A DNA stretch of 55,507 nucleotides from an uncultured Clostridia bacterium (GTDB lineage Bacteria > Bacillota > Clostridia > Oscillospirales > Ruminococcaceae), in NCBI GenBank assembly GCA_947166275.1, contig CAMVDP010000012.1:1-55507 (forward strand), read 5' to 3'. The position numbers were made by a program, and so were the translations under genes. The notes below the pieces were generated by a model, which was given only the letters and a program-made list of their open reading frames with translations, made no database searches and was not told where the DNA came from. Below are positions 44,423-50,508 of this stretch, piece after piece (positions within the stretch are counted from its first letter, which is position 1; the number at the start of each line of letters is the position of its first letter).

Positions 44423-46615
44423 ATGCCGATAATCTATGACGAAAGATCAAGAGTTTTCAAGCTTGATACGCCTTGTTCCAGCTACGCTTTCCACGTTACG
44501 GACAGTAAAAACCTGCTCCATTTATACTATGGCGCAAGTGTTCCGGAGACTGACCTTACCTACAACCTTCGCATACCTGACGGAGCTCCGTTCGTTCCGG
44601 CGACGCATGACGCAATGGGACCGCACTCCTTCGACTGCGCGCCTATAGAGTTCTCCACGAGCGGTGTGGCGGATTTTCGCGAGCCGTGCTTACAGGTGCG
44701 CGACAAGCTCGGTATGACCGCCTGCGAGGTGTACTACAAGAGCCATGAGATATACAAGGGAAAGCGTAAGCTTGAAGGACTGCCCGCGACGTTCGCCAAC
44801 AGCGACGACGAGGTGACATCCCTCGACCTTATCTGTGAGGACCCGCATACGGGTCTGGAGATAATTCTGCAGTATAGTGTGTTTGAAAAGCTCGATGTGA
44901 TAACGCGCTCGGTGAAGGTCACCAACAAGGGCTCCGACCCGCTGGAGCTGTTGCGGCTGCTGTCCTGCTGTGTTGACCTTGACCGCATGGACTATGACAT
45001 GATAACGCTGCGCGGTACGTGGGCGAGAGAGCGCCATGTACAGCGTTTCCCGCTGCACTTCGGCAAGCAGTCGATAGACTCCAACCGTGGTGCCACGAGC
45101 CACGCGAACAACAACTTCATGGCGTTCTGCGATCATACGGCAACCGAGGATCACGGCGAGTGCTACGGTTTCTCGTTCGTCTGGTCGGGCTCCTTCCTCG
45201 CGGAGGCAGAGGTGTACCAGTACGAAAAGACCCGCGTGGTGGTGGGCGAGAACCCGTTCGACTTTCAGTGGCATCTTGAGCCCGGAGAGAGCTTCCAGGC
45301 ACCCGAGGTCATCATGACCTATTCCGCCGAGGGTCTCGGAAAGATGTCCCGGAACCTGCACGATGTGATGCGCCGCAACCTTATCCGTGGCAAGTGGAAG
45401 GATATCCGCCGCCCGATACTGATAAACAACTGGGAGGCTACATATTTCGACTTCAACACCGACAAGCTGCTTGATATCGCGCGTGAGGCGAAGAAAGCGG
45501 GCATTGAGATGCTCGTCATGGACGACGGCTGGTTCGGGCACAGGAACGATGACCATTCCTCGCTCGGCGACTGGTATGTCAATGAGGATAAGATCAAAGG
45601 CGGACTGAAGCACCTTGTGGACGAGGTCAACAGGATAGGGCTGAAATTCGGTATCTGGTTCGAGCCGGAGATGATAAGCCCGGACAGCGACCTGTACCGC
45701 GCACACCCGGACTGGTGCCTGCACATCGAGGGCAGACCGAGGACGCAGGCGCGCTCGCAGCTTGTGCTGGACTTCTCGCGCAAGGAGATACGCGACTATA
45801 TCTACGGACGTATGCACGAGATACTCTCGTCCGCGAACATAGAGTATGTCAAGTGGGATATGAACCGCCAGCTCTGCGAGGTCGGCAACGAGATACTGCC
45901 CCCCGAGCGTCAGCGCGAGATATGGCATCGCTATGTGCTCGGCGTGTACGAGCTTCAGGAGCGCCTTCTGACAGATTTCCCGGATCTGCTGCTTGAGAAC
46001 TGCGCGGGCGGCGGCTCACGCTTTGACGCGGGAATGCTGTATTATTCGCCGCAGATATGGACGAGCGACGATACCGACGCGATCGAGCGCCTTAAAATAC
46101 AGTACGGCACATCGATGTGCTATCCGTGCTCCTGCTTCGGGGCGCATGTTTCCGACAGCCCGAACCACTGCGTCGGCAGAATGACTCCGTTTAAGACCCG
46201 CGGTCATGTGGCTATGGTCGGTACCTTCGGCTATGAGCTGGATGTGACGCGCATCAGCGACGACGACAAGGCTGCGATAAAGGATCAGATCGCGGAGTTT
46301 GAGAAGTACAATCCTCTTGTGCGCACGGGCGATCACTACCGCCTCGGCGACCCGTTCGCGAATGACCGCTTCGACGCGTGGCAGTTCGTGGCGAAGGACA
46401 AGAGTGAGACCCTGCTTGAATACGTGACCGTGCTGAAAGAGCCGAGCGTTTTCGAGCACCGGATAAGGCTCCGCGGGCTTGACGCGGCAAAGAGCTACCG
46501 TCACGAGGAGACCGGCAGGGTATTCTCGGGTGCGTTTTTAATGAACAACGGCTTCCACATACCCAATATGTGGGGCGATTTCCAGAGCTATATCGCGTAC
46601 TTCAAGGAGGTATGA
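44423..46615 (+). CDS. Alpha-galactosidase, glycoside hydrolase family 36
   Basis: GH36 enzymes hydrolyse alpha-1,6-galactose from raffinose-type sugars and galactomannan. The 730-residue protein has the N-terminal beta-sandwich, then the TIM barrel with VMDDGWFGHRNDD near 365-377 and KFGIWFEPEMISPDS near 407. The nucleophile Asp479 lies in VKWDMNR, LENCAGGGSRFD is near 525, and the acid/base region WTSDDTDAIERL is near 545. No signal peptide, so it probably acts on imported sugars. AAGAAAGG precedes the ATG. The Big2 gene follows with a 2-base gap. Confidence 0.95.
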   Translation: MPIIYDERSRVFKLDTPCSSYAFHVTDSKNLLHLYYGASVPETDLTYNLRIPDGAPFVPATHDAMGPHSFDCAPIEFSTSGVADFREPCLQVRDKLGMTACEVYYKSHEIYKGKRKLEGLPATFANSDDEVTSLDLICEDPHTGLEIILQYSVFEKLDVITRSVKVTNKGSDPLELLRLLSCCVDLDRMDYDMITLRGTWARERHVQRFPLHFGKQSIDSNRGATSHANNNFMAFCDHTATEDHGECYGFSFVWSGSFLAEAEVYQYEKTRVVVGENPFDFQWHLEPGESFQAPEVIMTYSAEGLGKMSRNLHDVMRRNLIRGKWKDIRRPILINNWEATYFDFNTDKLLDIAREAKKAGIEMLVMDDGWFGHRNDDHSSLGDWYVNEDKIKGGLKHLVDEVNRIGLKFGIWFEPEMISPDSDLYRAHPDWCLHIEGRPRTQARSQLVLDFSRKEIRDYIYGRMHEILSSANIEYVKWDMNRQLCEVGNEILPPERQREIWHRYVLGVYELQERLLTDFPDLLLENCAGGGSRFDAGMLYYSPQIWTSDDTDAIERLKIQYGTSMCYPCSCFGAHVSDSPNHCVGRMTPFKTRGHVAMVGTFGYELDVTRISDDDKAAIKDQIAEFEKYNPLVRTGDHYRLGDPFANDRFDAWQFVAKDKSETLLEYVTVLKEPSVFEHRIRLRGLDAAKSYRHEETGRVFSGAFLMNNGFHIPNMWGDFQSYIAYFKEV

Positions 46616-46617
46616 GC

Positions 46618-47337
46618 ATGAGATTCATTAAAAGGGCAGCGGCACTTCTGACCGCGTGTGTTATGGCGATCACCGGGGTTTCCGTATGCGGCGCTGCCGC
46701 GGATTATTTCGAGATATATTCGGGTTCAGAGAGCACATACACCATGCCGGACAACGGCAAGCTGCGACTGCTTTACACGGCTGAGAAAAGCGGCGAGCTG
46801 ACCGTGAAAATAAGCTACGCTTCGAGGTATCTGGCAGGAGTCATGTCGTGGGGCGATGAATCCGGTGATGTAAGTAATATCAAGCCCACATCGGTAAAAG
46901 CATCGAAGGGCAACGGAACGCTGCTTGAGATCGACAGCGATATAAGCGGATTTATGCTCACAAATGATGATGGCGGCGGCTGCGAGTGTACGCTGAAATA
47001 TAAGGTGAAAAAGGGCTACAACCTTATCACGCTGTCCAACGAGAGCGAGTCCAAACCCGAAAACCGCAAGGGCGGCAAACTGACGGTCTCGGTGACATTC
47101 GGTAAGAGCAAGGCAACGATAGACCGCTTCTCCGTCACAGTGAGCAAGGGCAGTACTCTGCAGCTCGGCGCTCTGCTGTCCGACGGCACATCGGGCTCTG
47201 TCACATGGTCGAGCTCGAAGAAGTCCGTTGCGACAGTCAATTCCAAGGGCAAGGTCACAGCGAAAGCTAAAGGCACCGCGGTCATCACCGCCAAGTACGG
47301 CGACAGTACGCTTAAGATCACAGTCGTGGTGAAATAA
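46618..47337 (+). CDS. Secreted protein with a C-terminal Big2 (Ig-like) domain
   Basis: The 239-residue protein has a signal peptide (about 1-25, RFIKRAAALLTACVMA then GAAA) and a beta-rich middle region of unknown family. The C-terminal Big2 domain starts near residue 165 with GSTLQLGALLSDGTSGSVTW and VATVNSKGKVTAKAKGTAV. Big2 domains are found in bacterial surface and adhesin proteins. The start is ATG 46618, with GGAGG ending 7 bases before it. The last codons (ITVVVK and stop) lie inside the 55-bp direct repeat, so its 3' end has a second, orphan copy at 48745. Confidence 0.8.
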   Translation: MRFIKRAAALLTACVMAITGVSVCGAAADYFEIYSGSESTYTMPDNGKLRLLYTAEKSGELTVKISYASRYLAGVMSWGDESGDVSNIKPTSVKASKGNGTLLEIDSDISGFMLTNDDGGGCECTLKYKVKKGYNLITLSNESESKPENRKGGKLTVSVTFGKSKATIDRFSVTVSKGSTLQLGALLSDGTSGSVTWSSSKKSVATVNSKGKVTAKAKGTAVITAKYGDSTLKITVVVK

Positions 47338-47370
47338 CGAAAAGCCCGTGAGCTTTAAGGCTCACGGGCT
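47316..47370. repeat. 55-bp direct repeat, left copy
   Basis: Identical to 48745-48799. It starts GATCACAGTCG and contains the last seven codons of the Big2 gene and its terminator. The two copies flank the AT-rich FkbM cassette, which suggests an inserted segment with a duplicated target. Confidence 0.92.
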
Positions 47371-47374
47371 GTGT
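47343..47374. terminator. Terminator shared by the Big2 gene and FkbM gene
   Basis: AGCCCGTGAGC (47343-47353) pairs with GCTCACGGGCT (47360-47370) over a 6-base loop. On the minus strand TTTTCG follows. On the plus strand the T-run is broken (GTGTTTTATATT), unlike the right copy (TTTTTTCATC). Confidence 0.82.
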
Positions 47375-47375
47375 T

Positions 47376-48431
47376 TTATATTGCATAGAGAACAGTTTCG
47401 ATTGGAGACGGTTCGTAGCTTCGGAGATAAAGCTTATATTCGGGGTTGATGCTTTTTATGTATTGAGGAATGGTCACTAAATCATCGATTTTATGATAAA
47501 CACATACAGCAAGTTTAGGTTTATATTTGGTTATTGTTTGCTTTGCGCCTTTTAACGCGCTTAATTCAGAGCCCTCAATATCCATTTTTATATATGTCGC
47601 TTTTTCTCCGTTAAGTACATTGTCAATGGAATCAACGGCAACAGAGAATTCCCCGCTGTCAGAAAACCGTGAAGAGGAGTTTATTTCTCCTTCAAAATGT
47701 AAAACGTCTTTTTCCTCGTATGCTCCCATATTATAAAGCTCAATATTCTTATAAAATGCAAGGTTACGCTTCAGCTCCCCGAAATTTTCGCCATCGGGTT
47801 CAAATGCGACACATTTTTTGTACGACATAATATTATGCTGTTTCAGCCAATTGAAGAATCCCGTAATGGTATCACCGTTATACGCCCCACAGTCAACGAA
47901 AATTTCGTCTTCCGAAGGCTTTAAAATATCATCATCAAAGTATTGGGAATTACGAGAGAACTCTTTAGAATAACACCCTGTATATTTCTGTGCGACAAAC
48001 AACATCAAAGTACGTCTTGATTCAAAATCTTGCAGCATTTTTGCTGTCTCTATCAGCTTGGCGTGATTTTCATACATGAAATCGTCGTCAAACAGATTGT
48101 GCATGCTGATAGGGTCGTATAAATCCAGCCAATATATTTTTTTTATATGGCCTGTGAGTTTTACGTTTGGTATGGCTTTTAAAGAATTGATCGCAACTAT
48201 GACCGACACATCGGATCTAATGGCTTTTTCAACAAGCACAGGCTTACCGCCGATGTATCTGTCTGCCTCATTTTCAGGCAGATATTCAGGATCAACGATA
48301 TACCCGCAAATATCGATATTATGTTCTTCCAGAAACGTTCTTATAAAGTCTGCAACAACTCCCGCGCCAAAAAGATAGATATCGTTTTTGTCTTTTGTAA
48401 TTTTTTCCAAAAAATCTTTGATAAAGTCCAT
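47376..48431 (-). CDS. FkbM-family SAM-dependent methyltransferase
   Basis: FkbM-type enzymes O-methylate sugars or natural products using SAM. The 351-residue protein has an N-terminal Rossmann-like domain with DIYLFGAGVVADFIR near 17-31. The methyltransferase core has FVDCGAYNGDTITGFF near 179, CVAFEPDGENFGEL near 204, YIKMDIEGSELSALKGAKQT near 275-294 and the C-terminal KLAVCVYHKIDDL block near 301. G+C is about one third by eye, unlike both neighbours. The start at 48431 has GAGGAAAGG about 8 bases upstream; the frame to 48533 runs back through the terminator. It has its own promoter and structured leader and lies between 55-bp direct repeats. Confidence 0.87.
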   Translation of the reverse strand: MDFIKDFLEKITKDKNDIYLFGAGVVADFIRTFLEEHNIDICGYIVDPEYLPENEADRYIGGKPVLVEKAIRSDVSVIVAINSLKAIPNVKLTGHIKKIYWLDLYDPISMHNLFDDDFMYENHAKLIETAKMLQDFESRRTLMLFVAQKYTGCYSKEFSRNSQYFDDDILKPSEDEIFVDCGAYNGDTITGFFNWLKQHNIMSYKKCVAFEPDGENFGELKRNLAFYKNIELYNMGAYEEKDVLHFEGEINSSSRFSDSGEFSVAVDSIDNVLNGEKATYIKMDIEGSELSALKGAKQTITKYKPKLAVCVYHKIDDLVTIPQYIKSINPEYKLYLRSYEPSPIETVLYAI

Positions 48432-48473
48432 AATAAAAGCCTTTCCTCGATGCACCATATTTTCACGCAAAAC

Positions 48474-48500
48474 AAAAATGCGCAGCAACAAGGCTGCGCA
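48474..48500 (-). terminator. Intrinsic terminator in the FkbM leader
   Basis: TGCGCAGC (48493-48500) pairs with GCTGCGCA (48479-48486) over a 6-base loop, followed by TTTTTG. It lies about 45 bases before the FkbM start codon and downstream of the promoter, so it must be read through for expression. Confidence 0.8.
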
Positions 48501-48640
48501 CCGTAAAAATACAAGCCTTGATTGCTGCGACACAAACCGAAACGCAAAACAAATACTGTCTTTAACGCCACGAAAAAGCCCGCATTTCTACCTTAAATAG
48601 AAATAGGCACTAAAGACAATAATATTCGGTTTATGTCGCA
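48474..48640 (-). promoter_or_regulatory. Highly structured attenuator-like leader of the FkbM gene
   Basis: On the minus strand GCGACATAAACCGAA (48625-48639) pairs with TTCGGTTTGTGTCGC (48527-48541), 15 pairs with one G-U. Inside, GTCTTTAGTGCC (48606-48617) pairs with GGCGTTAAAGAC (48558-48569), 12 pairs. Inside that ATTTCTA (48598-48604) pairs with TAGAAAT (48584-48590). Further on, GCAGCAATCAAGGCT (48514-48528) can pair with AGCCTTGTTGCTGC (48482-48495), which would block the terminator at 48479-48500. This is the layout of a riboswitch or attenuator. I do not recognise the class. Confidence 0.68.
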
Positions 48641-48645
48641 TATAT

Positions 48646-48674
48646 ATAATACCATATTTTCTACTAAAAATCAA
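48646..48674 (-). promoter_or_regulatory. Promoter of the FkbM cassette
   Basis: TTGATT (48669-48674), a 17-base spacer and TATTAT (48646-48651) on the minus strand. The predicted start falls at the base of the first leader stem. Confidence 0.7.
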
Positions 48675-48744
48675 GACCATGTTAAACATTCTTTTTAAAA
48701 TTTCTGCATATTATCCCCGCCGCGGGTAAGGGAAAATCATCTAC

Positions 48745-48799
48745 GATCACAGTCGTGGTGAAATAACGAAAAGCCCGTGAGCTTTAAGGCTCACGGGCT
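48745..48799. repeat. 55-bp direct repeat, right copy
   Basis: Perfect copy of 47316-47370. Here the seven Big2 codons are orphaned: no open Big2 frame runs into them. Its terminator AGCCCGTGAGC/GCTCACGGGCT (48772-48799) keeps the full TTTTTT run. Confidence 0.92.
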
Positions 48800-48805
48800 T
48801 TTTTC
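48772..48805. terminator. Bidirectional terminator, right copy
   Basis: An 11-bp stem (48772-48782 with 48789-48799) with TTTTTT on the plus side and TTTTCG on the minus side. It probably now serves the Fn3 gene that ends at 48807. Confidence 0.83.
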
Positions 48806-48806
48806 A

Positions 48807-50345
48807 TCACTTGCATTCGTTCCAGGCACTGTAGTATTTCTTGCCGTCTATCGTCTTGTATGTGCGTATACGGAATATATAGGACTTATTTTTGGAGAGC
48901 TTGAGCGTTTTTGAGGTTTTATCCGAAGCGACTGTACAAGCTTTCTTAAAAGTCTTGCCGCCGTCGGTGGAATAGCGTATCTCGTACTTTTCGGCATCAG
49001 CTACCGCATTCCATGACAGCTTGTACTTATTGCCGGATCTCTTTACCGTGAGAGTCGGGGGCATGGGGCCAAATTTGAATGTCTTCTCGACATATCCGAG
49101 ATAATTGCCTTTACCGACGATCTTGACCTTGCATTCGCCAATATTAAAACTGCTGTCGAATGAAAAATCATAATCAACGTTAGGTGTTAACTCTTTGTCG
49201 CCGTCTGTTATCGATAATTTCGGATGAAGTATTGTTTTGGTATATTTATCATTTAAGCCGTTTTCGACTCCGCCGTTTTCGACCTGTTTGATCTTGAGAT
49301 CTTTGAGATACTTTGCGGTGGCAAGAGAAACAAACTGCATGGTAGTGCCGGACAGACTGCCATAGAAATTCCTGTCTCTGCCTGTAAGATAATATGTCAT
49401 ATTTGCAGTACGGATACCGGTCTTGGTCAGCAGCTCTTTACCGATGTCAGATGTCTTTTTGAACCATGCTATACTTGTATATTCGTAATAGGTCGTATAA
49501 TACTCGCGTTTGTCTACTTTGACAGATTTGGGCTTCTCTTCGTCGGTGACAACTCCGAAATACATTTCCTTACCGTCGTTTTCCAGGTATATAATGTAAT
49601 CAAATACATTTACGTGGCACTTAAAGTCGGGTTCATATCCCGCACTTTGCAGTTCCGTTACAAGATCGACAGCGCGGTGATCCACAACCAGCTTGAAGCC
49701 AATATAATCACCGTTCTCAACAAACGATATGTCGGGCGCTGTGTAATCTGTATCTTTACCCTCGTTGGGATTTTTTGTGCTGTCGGCTTTGCTGATAGGG
49801 AGAAGCACAGCATTGCTCCAGTGATCGGATCTGTAATCCGAACCATAGTAGTCTATGCTGTTATAGCCTATGCTTTTGATCGTTTTAAGATCGGTGACGG
49901 CTTTTTTGTCCGTAACTGTAACAGCAAATCCGCCTTTAAGCTTTTTTCCGTCTTTTTCATAATGCTTTACGGTTGCCGGTATTTCCGTTTCGCTGCCGTA
50001 TTCTGTCACTTTGGCTTCGAGATTTTTTCCCGAATATGACGAATCGACATCGCTGACATGAACGGTATATGCGCTTTTCTGTTCGTCCTTGTTAAGATTG
50101 ATATACGCGCTGCGGGAGATATAGTAAAAGCCGGAGGGCTTGGTCTGGTCTTTCTCCAGAGGAGCTATAGCCTCATCGAAACCGTCAATATACAGGATAT
50201 AGCTTCCGTCTTTTTCCTCCCAGTAGAAGCGCAGCGGGCTCTGGTCGATGCTGAGCGCGCCGGCAGTTACCGAGCCGAAGAACATCGTAGTTACCGCAAG
50301 TACCCCCGCCATAAAAACAGAGAGTATTCTCATTGCTTTTTTCAT
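48807..50345 (-). CDS. Secreted protein with a C-terminal fibronectin type III domain
   Basis: The 512-residue protein has a signal peptide (about 1-30, basic start then VFMAGVLAVTTMFF and AGA) and a long Lys/Asp/Tyr-rich middle region without a recognised family. A short MBG-like segment is near 395-425 (SFNIGECKVKIVGKGNYLG). A C-terminal Fn3 domain starts near 430 with LTVKRSGNKYKLSWN and AEKYEIRYSTDGGKTF. Likely surface-exposed. The start at 50345 was chosen for the signal peptide; the frame to 50489 is rejected. Its own promoter lies at 50480-50508. It is convergent with the FkbM insertion site. Confidence 0.8.
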   Translation of the reverse strand: MKKAMRILSVFMAGVLAVTTMFFGSVTAGALSIDQSPLRFYWEEKDGSYILYIDGFDEAIAPLEKDQTKPSGFYYISRSAYINLNKDEQKSAYTVHVSDVDSSYSGKNLEAKVTEYGSETEIPATVKHYEKDGKKLKGGFAVTVTDKKAVTDLKTIKSIGYNSIDYYGSDYRSDHWSNAVLLPISKADSTKNPNEGKDTDYTAPDISFVENGDYIGFKLVVDHRAVDLVTELQSAGYEPDFKCHVNVFDYIIYLENDGKEMYFGVVTDEEKPKSVKVDKREYYTTYYEYTSIAWFKKTSDIGKELLTKTGIRTANMTYYLTGRDRNFYGSLSGTTMQFVSLATAKYLKDLKIKQVENGGVENGLNDKYTKTILHPKLSITDGDKELTPNVDYDFSFDSSFNIGECKVKIVGKGNYLGYVEKTFKFGPMPPTLTVKRSGNKYKLSWNAVADAEKYEIRYSTDGGKTFKKACTVASDKTSKTLKLSKNKSYIFRIRTYKTIDGKKYYSAWNECK

Positions 50346-50479
50346 TGTTCCATTTCCTTCCCGGTGTGCGTTTGTGTAATTTCCCGGGTGTCCTGTCCGC
50401 ACACCGTTTTTCCGGCAGGACACAGCATTAACGCTATTTTGCACAAAACGAGTCGGTGTACATTCCGTACAATAAGTAT

Positions 50480-50508
50480 ATTTTACCATATTTTCGCAGA
50501 AATTTCAA
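50480..50508 (-). promoter_or_regulatory. Promoter of the Fn3 gene
   Basis: TTGAAA (50503-50508), a 17-base spacer and TAAAAT (50480-50485) on the minus strand. The leader of about 130 bases contains a TGTCCTG/CAGGACA stem. Confidence 0.7.

Follow-up and report, generated by a model that had tools for sequence, protein, structure and literature searches.

Within the 55,507-nt stretch of Clostridia DNA analysed here (the window), we found that an FkbM-family methyltransferase gene is preceded by a conserved, folded leader RNA whose helices covary across a large family, as they do in riboswitches. We think it probable that this leader belongs to a new RNA class and attenuates transcription in cis in the manner of a riboswitch, for which it would work as an OFF switch by means of a pseudoknot. 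We also lean slightly towards a broader reading, in which the family is a riboswitch class confined, in the samples searched, to Clostridia, may respond to a possibly undescribed signal, and would govern a surface and secreted protein regulon that numbers up to about two dozen genes in a genome, in some cases by way of tandem arrays of complete promoter-leader-terminator modules. Neither the RNA family nor the pseudoknot figured in the original prediction, nor did the finding that FkbM genes are not the typical target.

The leader lies on the minus strand, as do all of its parts described below, and extends from helix P1 to the end of a U-tract (48472..48640). A covariance model of the family, R1, which was built from 42 members with the window left out, matches it with 82.1 bits (E 6e-15). 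Its computed folding energy is -68.5 kcal/mol compared with -40.9 (sd 3.8) for dinucleotide-shuffled sequences (z -7.3), and none of 200 shuffles reached this value. Three nested stems of 15, 12 and 7 pairs had been proposed; we found the three stems, with 13 (15 once the terminator is enforced), 16 and 9 pairs, respectively, in the minimum free energy (MFE) fold. In this architecture P2 is placed inside P1 and P3 on P2, and an intrinsic terminator follows. P1 joins 48637-48625 with 48541-48529, P2 joins 48621-48606 with 48569-48554, and P3 joins 48604-48596 with 48592-48584. The full P1 5' strand (UGCGACAUAAACCGAA; 48625..48640) is probably at or adjoining the 5' end of the RNA, and the last bases of the P1 3' strand (48526..48541) can, judging from the fold and pairing energies, also enter an antiterminator. 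The two strands of P2 occupy 48606..48621 and 48554..48569, and the P3 hairpin (AUUUCUAUUUAAGGUAGAAAU) occupies 48584..48604.

The intrinsic terminator (48472..48500) consists of a hairpin at 48500-48479 and a U-tract that runs to 48472. It had been placed about 45 bases before the start codon, and we found a gap of 40 nt between the end of the U-tract and the ATG (48431). The original prediction had further held that the strand GCAGCAATCAAGGCT, just after the first stem, can pair with the terminator loop and 3' arm such that the two hairpins exclude each other. Our calculations agree with this claim: the window can form an antiterminator of -28.6 kcal/mol between a 5' arm (GCAGCAAUCAAGGCU; 48514..48528) and a 3' arm (AGCCUUGUUGCUGC; 48482..48495) contained in the terminator loop and 3' arm, compared with -15.9 kcal/mol for the terminator. 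Throughout the family, the antiterminator, aided by the end of the P1 3' strand, likewise pairs with the terminator loop and 3' arm. Pairing with the member's own terminator averaged -19.3 kcal/mol versus -17.5 (sd 0.2) with swapped partners, a value that none of 5000 swaps equalled (66 distinct pairs); for the 42 pairs that have no CUUCGG in the loop segment, the corresponding energies were -19.6 and -17.1. Sequence and energy together point to a transcription attenuator with mutually exclusive terminator and antiterminator hairpins. For the window, P1 with the antiterminator gives the MFE structure (-68.5 kcal/mol) versus -65.2 for P1 with the terminator and no knot; this would be compatible with a default ON state, while energies computed without the knot cannot settle which state prevails.

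Upstream of P1, at a distance of 5 nt, lies a putative extended -10 promoter (TTGATT-17-TATTAT, with TG before the -10; 48646..48674). As a single site, the promoter that had been predicted here is weak: it matches 9 of 12 consensus positions, and positions 47000-50500 contain nine promoter-like sites of the same kind versus 7.5 (sd 2.7) expected. The family gives it firmer ground. A -10 element matching at least five of six positions lies within the 18 nt upstream of P1 in 144 of 163 family elements versus 632 of 3260 shuffled sequences; in 120 of the 163 its spacing to P1 is exactly 5 nt, and 126 of the 144 elements that have it also show the TGn extension. Because this -10 is found right before P1 family-wide, transcription probably starts at or adjoining P1. 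We also looked for leader peptides: open reading frames of at least 8 aa led by a Shine-Dalgarno (SD) sequence occurred in 13 of 163 leaders and 47 of 489 shuffled ones, no excess, and we reject a peptide-leader attenuator on these counts.

The family was assembled from DNA and pattern searches. A DNA search yielded two partial copies elsewhere in the same genome; of the 71 genus genomes, 32 had matches. Named GTDB genomes were searched with a pattern composed of the P1 3' strand and the antiterminator arm, which matched at least 116 stretches. Among the 80 matches listed, 73 were in Clostridia or unspecified Bacillota metagenome-assembled genomes (MAGs), mainly from herbivore gut, with Ruminiclostridium, Ruminococcus, Monoglobus and Oscillospiraceae among the Clostridial ones; the other seven were in three Bacteroidetes-type genomes, Nitrotoga, Arenicella, a Woesearchaeote and one further bacterium. 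A P1 5' strand able to form at least 10 of 11 pairs was present upstream in 106 of at least 120 pattern matches (two viral contigs among them). Of the 14 matches that have no such strand, four (L052, L084, L086 and L133) look cut off or degraded, and the remaining ten were taken as chance matches (L066 has too little upstream DNA for a judgement, and L044 is a Ruminococcus MAG); these ten score at most 15.2 bits with R1. One member, L151 (2598-2626, minus strand), is in a 14.8-kb contig filed as viral in IMG/VR, and the element is identical to that of L089, a named Clostridiales MAG; the contig is possibly a prophage or misfiled.

To what extent the helices are conserved as helices was assessed on two alignments, one of 108 distinct members (A2) and one of 64 (A4), the latter drawn mostly from loci that the model, rather than the pattern, had picked up. 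On A2, 93.4% of the cells of the four helices (P1, P2, P3 and the terminator) were standard pairs, changes on both sides had affected 33 of 37 pairs, and 457 cells showed such two-sided changes versus 141 (sd 12) after shuffling, with none of 500 shuffles as high. On A4, the values were 95.0%, 33 of 37 pairs, and 387 cells versus 101 (sd 10). These figures are to be read with two properties of the tests in mind: both alignments were fitted to the tested structure, which favours that structure, and the shuffles leave relatedness among members in place. By helix, two-sided changes affected 11 of 11 modelled pairs in P1, 8 of 8 in P2, 5 of 8 in P3 and 9 of 10 in the terminator. RNAalifold, run on MAFFT alignments, displayed P1 and the terminator but not P2 and P3, which it missed because P2 is too variable; the latter stems were set by hand and then tested. 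Homologues with compensatory changes, which the original prediction had named as a check on itself, were thus found on both alignments.

The family also revealed a pairing that connects the folded part of the leader to the antiterminator. The conserved bulge between P3 and P2 has the consensus 5'-RUGCA-N-GCUCU-3', which is complementary to 5'-GGAGC-UNN-UGCAU-3' downstream of P1. In the window, the 5' strand of this pseudoknot (AAAUGCGGGCUUU; 48575..48587) comprises the foot of P3 and the bulge, and the 3' strand (AAGGCUUGUAUUU; 48507..48519) shares bases with the antiterminator 5' arm. Pairing of 48587-48575 with 48519-48507 would give an uninterrupted helix of 13 pairs, G-U pairs among them, with an energy of -13.0 kcal/mol. 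Although these pairs are absent from R1, 94.6% of the cells were paired on A2, where 8 of 10 pairs had two-sided changes (35 cells versus 7.7, sd 2.5, after shuffling; 0 of 500), and 91.9% on A4, where 9 of 10 pairs did (53 cells versus 12.8, sd 3.8; 0 of 500). In control registers slid by one to three columns, pairing fell to 23-72% and the two-sided counts were far lower. A register-free test, from which 5 of 108 rows with no bulge in the alignment were left out, was weaker, with a mean of 13.35 versus 12.80 (sd 0.21) and 24 of 5000 shuffles as high. The bases at the foot of P3 double as pseudoknot bases and covary with both partners, which would reflect either alternative pairing or base triples. 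Because P3 and the second pseudoknot helix have these bases in common, they cannot both be fully formed together. As a guess, a U.A-U triple helix could be built from the A-U-rich P3 and the U-tract that comes after the knot.

We propose the following sequence of events for the leader. Transcription would start at or beside P1, and P1, P2 and P3 would fold first, leaving the conserved 3' bulge between P3 and P2. This fold would be stabilised by a signal, for which a directly bound small molecule or ion is the likeliest candidate. The bulge would then pair with the downstream 5'-GGAGC..UGCAU-3' (AAGGCUUGUAUUU in the window), this segment would be lost to the antiterminator 5' arm, the terminator would form, and the gene would be off; when the signal is lacking, the antiterminator would form and the gene would be read. 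We infer both the switching and its OFF direction: the knotted fold should permit the terminator, and turn the gene off, because the 3' strand of the knot overlaps the antiterminator 5' arm. The same attenuator could conversely be an ON switch, in which the signal frees the antiterminator arm. This alternative concerns the direction only, and so overlaps the others considered below. It draws on the fact that the pseudoknot shares bases with P3, so that tightening of P3 by a ligand could disrupt the second pseudoknot helix and thereby set the arm free; set against this, the covarying pseudoknot occupies the antiterminator arm itself, which is most simply read as OFF. We regard an ON switch as possible but doubtful.

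Rather unlikely, in our estimate, is a leader of the same build that is read by an RNA-binding protein, acting as an antiterminator or repressor at a putative site UGCGACA.AA / UU.UGUCGCAGCAA in P1 or at the P3-P2 bulge. Its appeal lies in P1, which is more uniform than pairing requires, with 9 of the 11 modelled pairs being of one pair type in at least 99 of 108 rows (a uniformity in part imposed by the search pattern), and in the diversity of the exported targets described below, which would suit a global regulator. P1 can be replaced with pairing kept, however: GCCAAACA/UGUUUGGC take its place in L231 and GCCACAUA in L182, and a copy on another contig of the same genome (C6; 39.5 bits) has an unrelated P1 of 21 pairs with a 2-nt bulge. 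Such replacements argue against a sequence-specific P1 binder.

The leader has been rated a new RNA class of a known type. Like the terminator/antiterminator riboswitches and attenuators, it has a promoter, a folded leader, two exclusive hairpins and an intrinsic terminator before the gene; it differs from them in that it matches no family in Rfam 15. At gathering score, Rfam 15 returned nothing on the leader in the window, where the only match was a distant tRNA at 711-782, and for 18 member loci returned only a TPP riboswitch that lies outside the element (L118, 514-615). Permissive scans gave five sub-gathering matches around the leader (for example, the PrfA thermoregulator with 18 bits versus 88) and, at E up to 1, three sub-gathering matches at 11 member loci, none of them on the element. 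A match to a known Rfam family was another check that the original prediction had named for itself, and these results bear out its view that the attenuator looks undescribed. T-box leaders are Firmicute attenuators with an antiterminator, but the new RNA has no Rfam T-box match, and the targets scanned are mostly exported proteins rather than amino-acid genes. In the fluoride, ZTP and preQ1 riboswitches, whether transcription terminates depends on a knot that the aptamer forms with the segment upstream of the terminator. The new RNA resembles these, as a kind, in having a knot that adjoins the expression platform; unlike them, its knot takes the antiterminator arm, predicting OFF, and it has no Rfam match to them. 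Among the papers listed by full-text searches of the open-access literature, none fits this RNA. Passages of two discovery surveys (PMC11109978 and PMC8632094) contain no match, and their supplementary motif lists may hold this RNA as an unnamed candidate.

The gene downstream of the leader in the window (47376..48431, minus strand) encodes a 351-aa FkbM-family methyltransferase (PF05050, E 1.6e-14; TIGR01444, E 1.2e-16). The original prediction had taken this methyltransferase to be the controlled target, a view that does not extend to the family. We scanned 116 downstream proteins, cut at 700 aa (115 distinct ones and the window's own), and found FkbM in two, the window and L039; FkbM-specific control is rejected. 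The other domains included BspA-type LRR (32 proteins), Big_2 (6), SLH (5), AMP-binding (4) and zinc ribbon (4). Exported or surface proteins are the usual targets. Judged by a crude script, the first ORF after the leader, where it has 100 aa or more, has an N-terminus resembling a signal peptide or membrane segment in 84 of 105 cases, versus 119 of the 427 remaining ORFs at these loci, some of which are perhaps not genes; when ORFs of at least 200 aa were compared, the counts were 74 of 88 versus 83 of 303. A same-strand ORF lies close downstream of 133 of 155 elements, and a divergent ORF lies on the opposite side of 47 of 148. The exported proteins may be co-regulated through the leader. 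Further copies in the same genome precede a 221-aa (L003) and a 449-aa (L002) exported protein, and another precedes a small ORF, zinc ribbon-like by eye, and then a lipoprotein. Because the downstream genes are so diverse, no pathway points to a ligand. Few targets are non-exported; among them is an AMP-binding, acyl-CoA-ligase-like enzyme straight after the leader in L193, L205, L080 and L143, with an N-terminus that resembles TG[YF]PS[IV]DKPWLKYY. NCBIfam gave acyl-CoA-ligase matches below cut-off for three of these four enzymes, and no clue to a ligand.

An obvious candidate for the signal was c-di-GMP. The c-di-GMP-I riboswitch (RF01051) controls genes for surface and exported proteins in Clostridia too, and the genus is rich in GGDEF domains, which makes a new class of c-di-GMP riboswitch that coordinates surface proteins worth considering. 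All 71 genus genomes have GGDEF matches (26 in the genome of the window, G000, of 1.9 Mb, and up to 43 in relatives), whereas c-di-GMP-I itself occurs in one of the 71 (G038, also a carrier of the new RNA), where the copy is not at a member. Within the genus, the copy number of the RNA rises with GGDEF number (Spearman 0.78, without correction for clade or genome size). Beyond it, a sample of the order includes 109 RNA-positive genomes, of which 58 lack a GGDEF match, and GGDEF is less frequent in positives (51 of 109) than in negatives (145 of 237; Fisher p 0.014). Five of ten copy-rich genomes, including one with 26 copies, are also GGDEF-free. These data contradict c-di-GMP as the family-wide ligand and make a c-di-GMP riboswitch very improbable. 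RF01051 itself has no match in the window or at the member loci. The DAC domain of c-di-AMP synthases was present in all 20 RNA-positive genomes tested, but is so widespread as to have no discriminating power.

The R1 model allowed us to assess how far the family extends. It matched at 120 places in 35 of 71 genus genomes, with 1 to 9 places per genome; the other 36, some of which are nearly complete, had no R1 match, a result that counts against our preferred explanation. In the order sample, 109 of 346 genomes had R1 matches, spread over 65 of 154 genera; in a class sample the matches fell in 65 of 293 genomes and 43 of 180 genera, a few of them already covered by the earlier samples. In a phylum sample of 348, the window's own genome was matched and the 347 others were not. 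The copy numbers from these large searches are lower bounds, because filters were stricter and few candidates were scored per genome; with fuller scoring, ten copy-rich genomes had 8 to 26 matches each (E up to 0.001). An RNA with no Rfam match and as many as 26 copies per genome, present in 109 of 346 order and 65 of 293 class genomes, would be among the larger ligand-orphan classes of regulatory RNA. Its targets are mainly proteins by which gut Clostridia contact host, mucus and plant fibre; identification of the signal would open up the regulation of the Clostridial surface, and the covarying pseudoknot makes mutational testing of the leader simple.

Some members occur in arrays. Four complete units stand before one gene in L231 (866-1834, plus strand) and in L182 (1070-153, minus strand), spaced by 240-272 nt and each seemingly with its own promoter, leader and terminator, and paired units occur in L112, in L195/L232 and in four further genomes (L269-L272). 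A promoter and terminator for each unit count against our preferred explanation, because a simple leader does not need them. We consider it barely credible that the family is a mobile, MITE-like repeat with inverted repeats that only resemble RNA stems, for although there are many copies per genome and whole units in tandem, all four modelled helices carry two-sided compensatory changes across many genera, and the orientation to genes, the fixed promoter spacing and the covariation of pseudoknot and antiterminator also speak against it.

A shortened member in the same genome (L002, 1454-1562, on contig C4; 32 bits) has a small P1 loop and has kept the terminator part, and P2 and P3 are absent by eye; this leader has possibly lost its sensor. 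In the window itself, both neighbours of the leader and its gene look exported: a Big_2 protein is encoded at 46570-47337 (plus strand), and a 560-aa ORF at 48807-50489 (minus strand) has a signal-like stretch by eye. Neither is preceded by an R1 match. Finally, a strong terminator-like hairpin of closely similar sequence (AGCCCGTGAGC..GCTCACGGGCT) flanks the FkbM gene and its leader on both sides, at 47343-47370 and 48769-48802.
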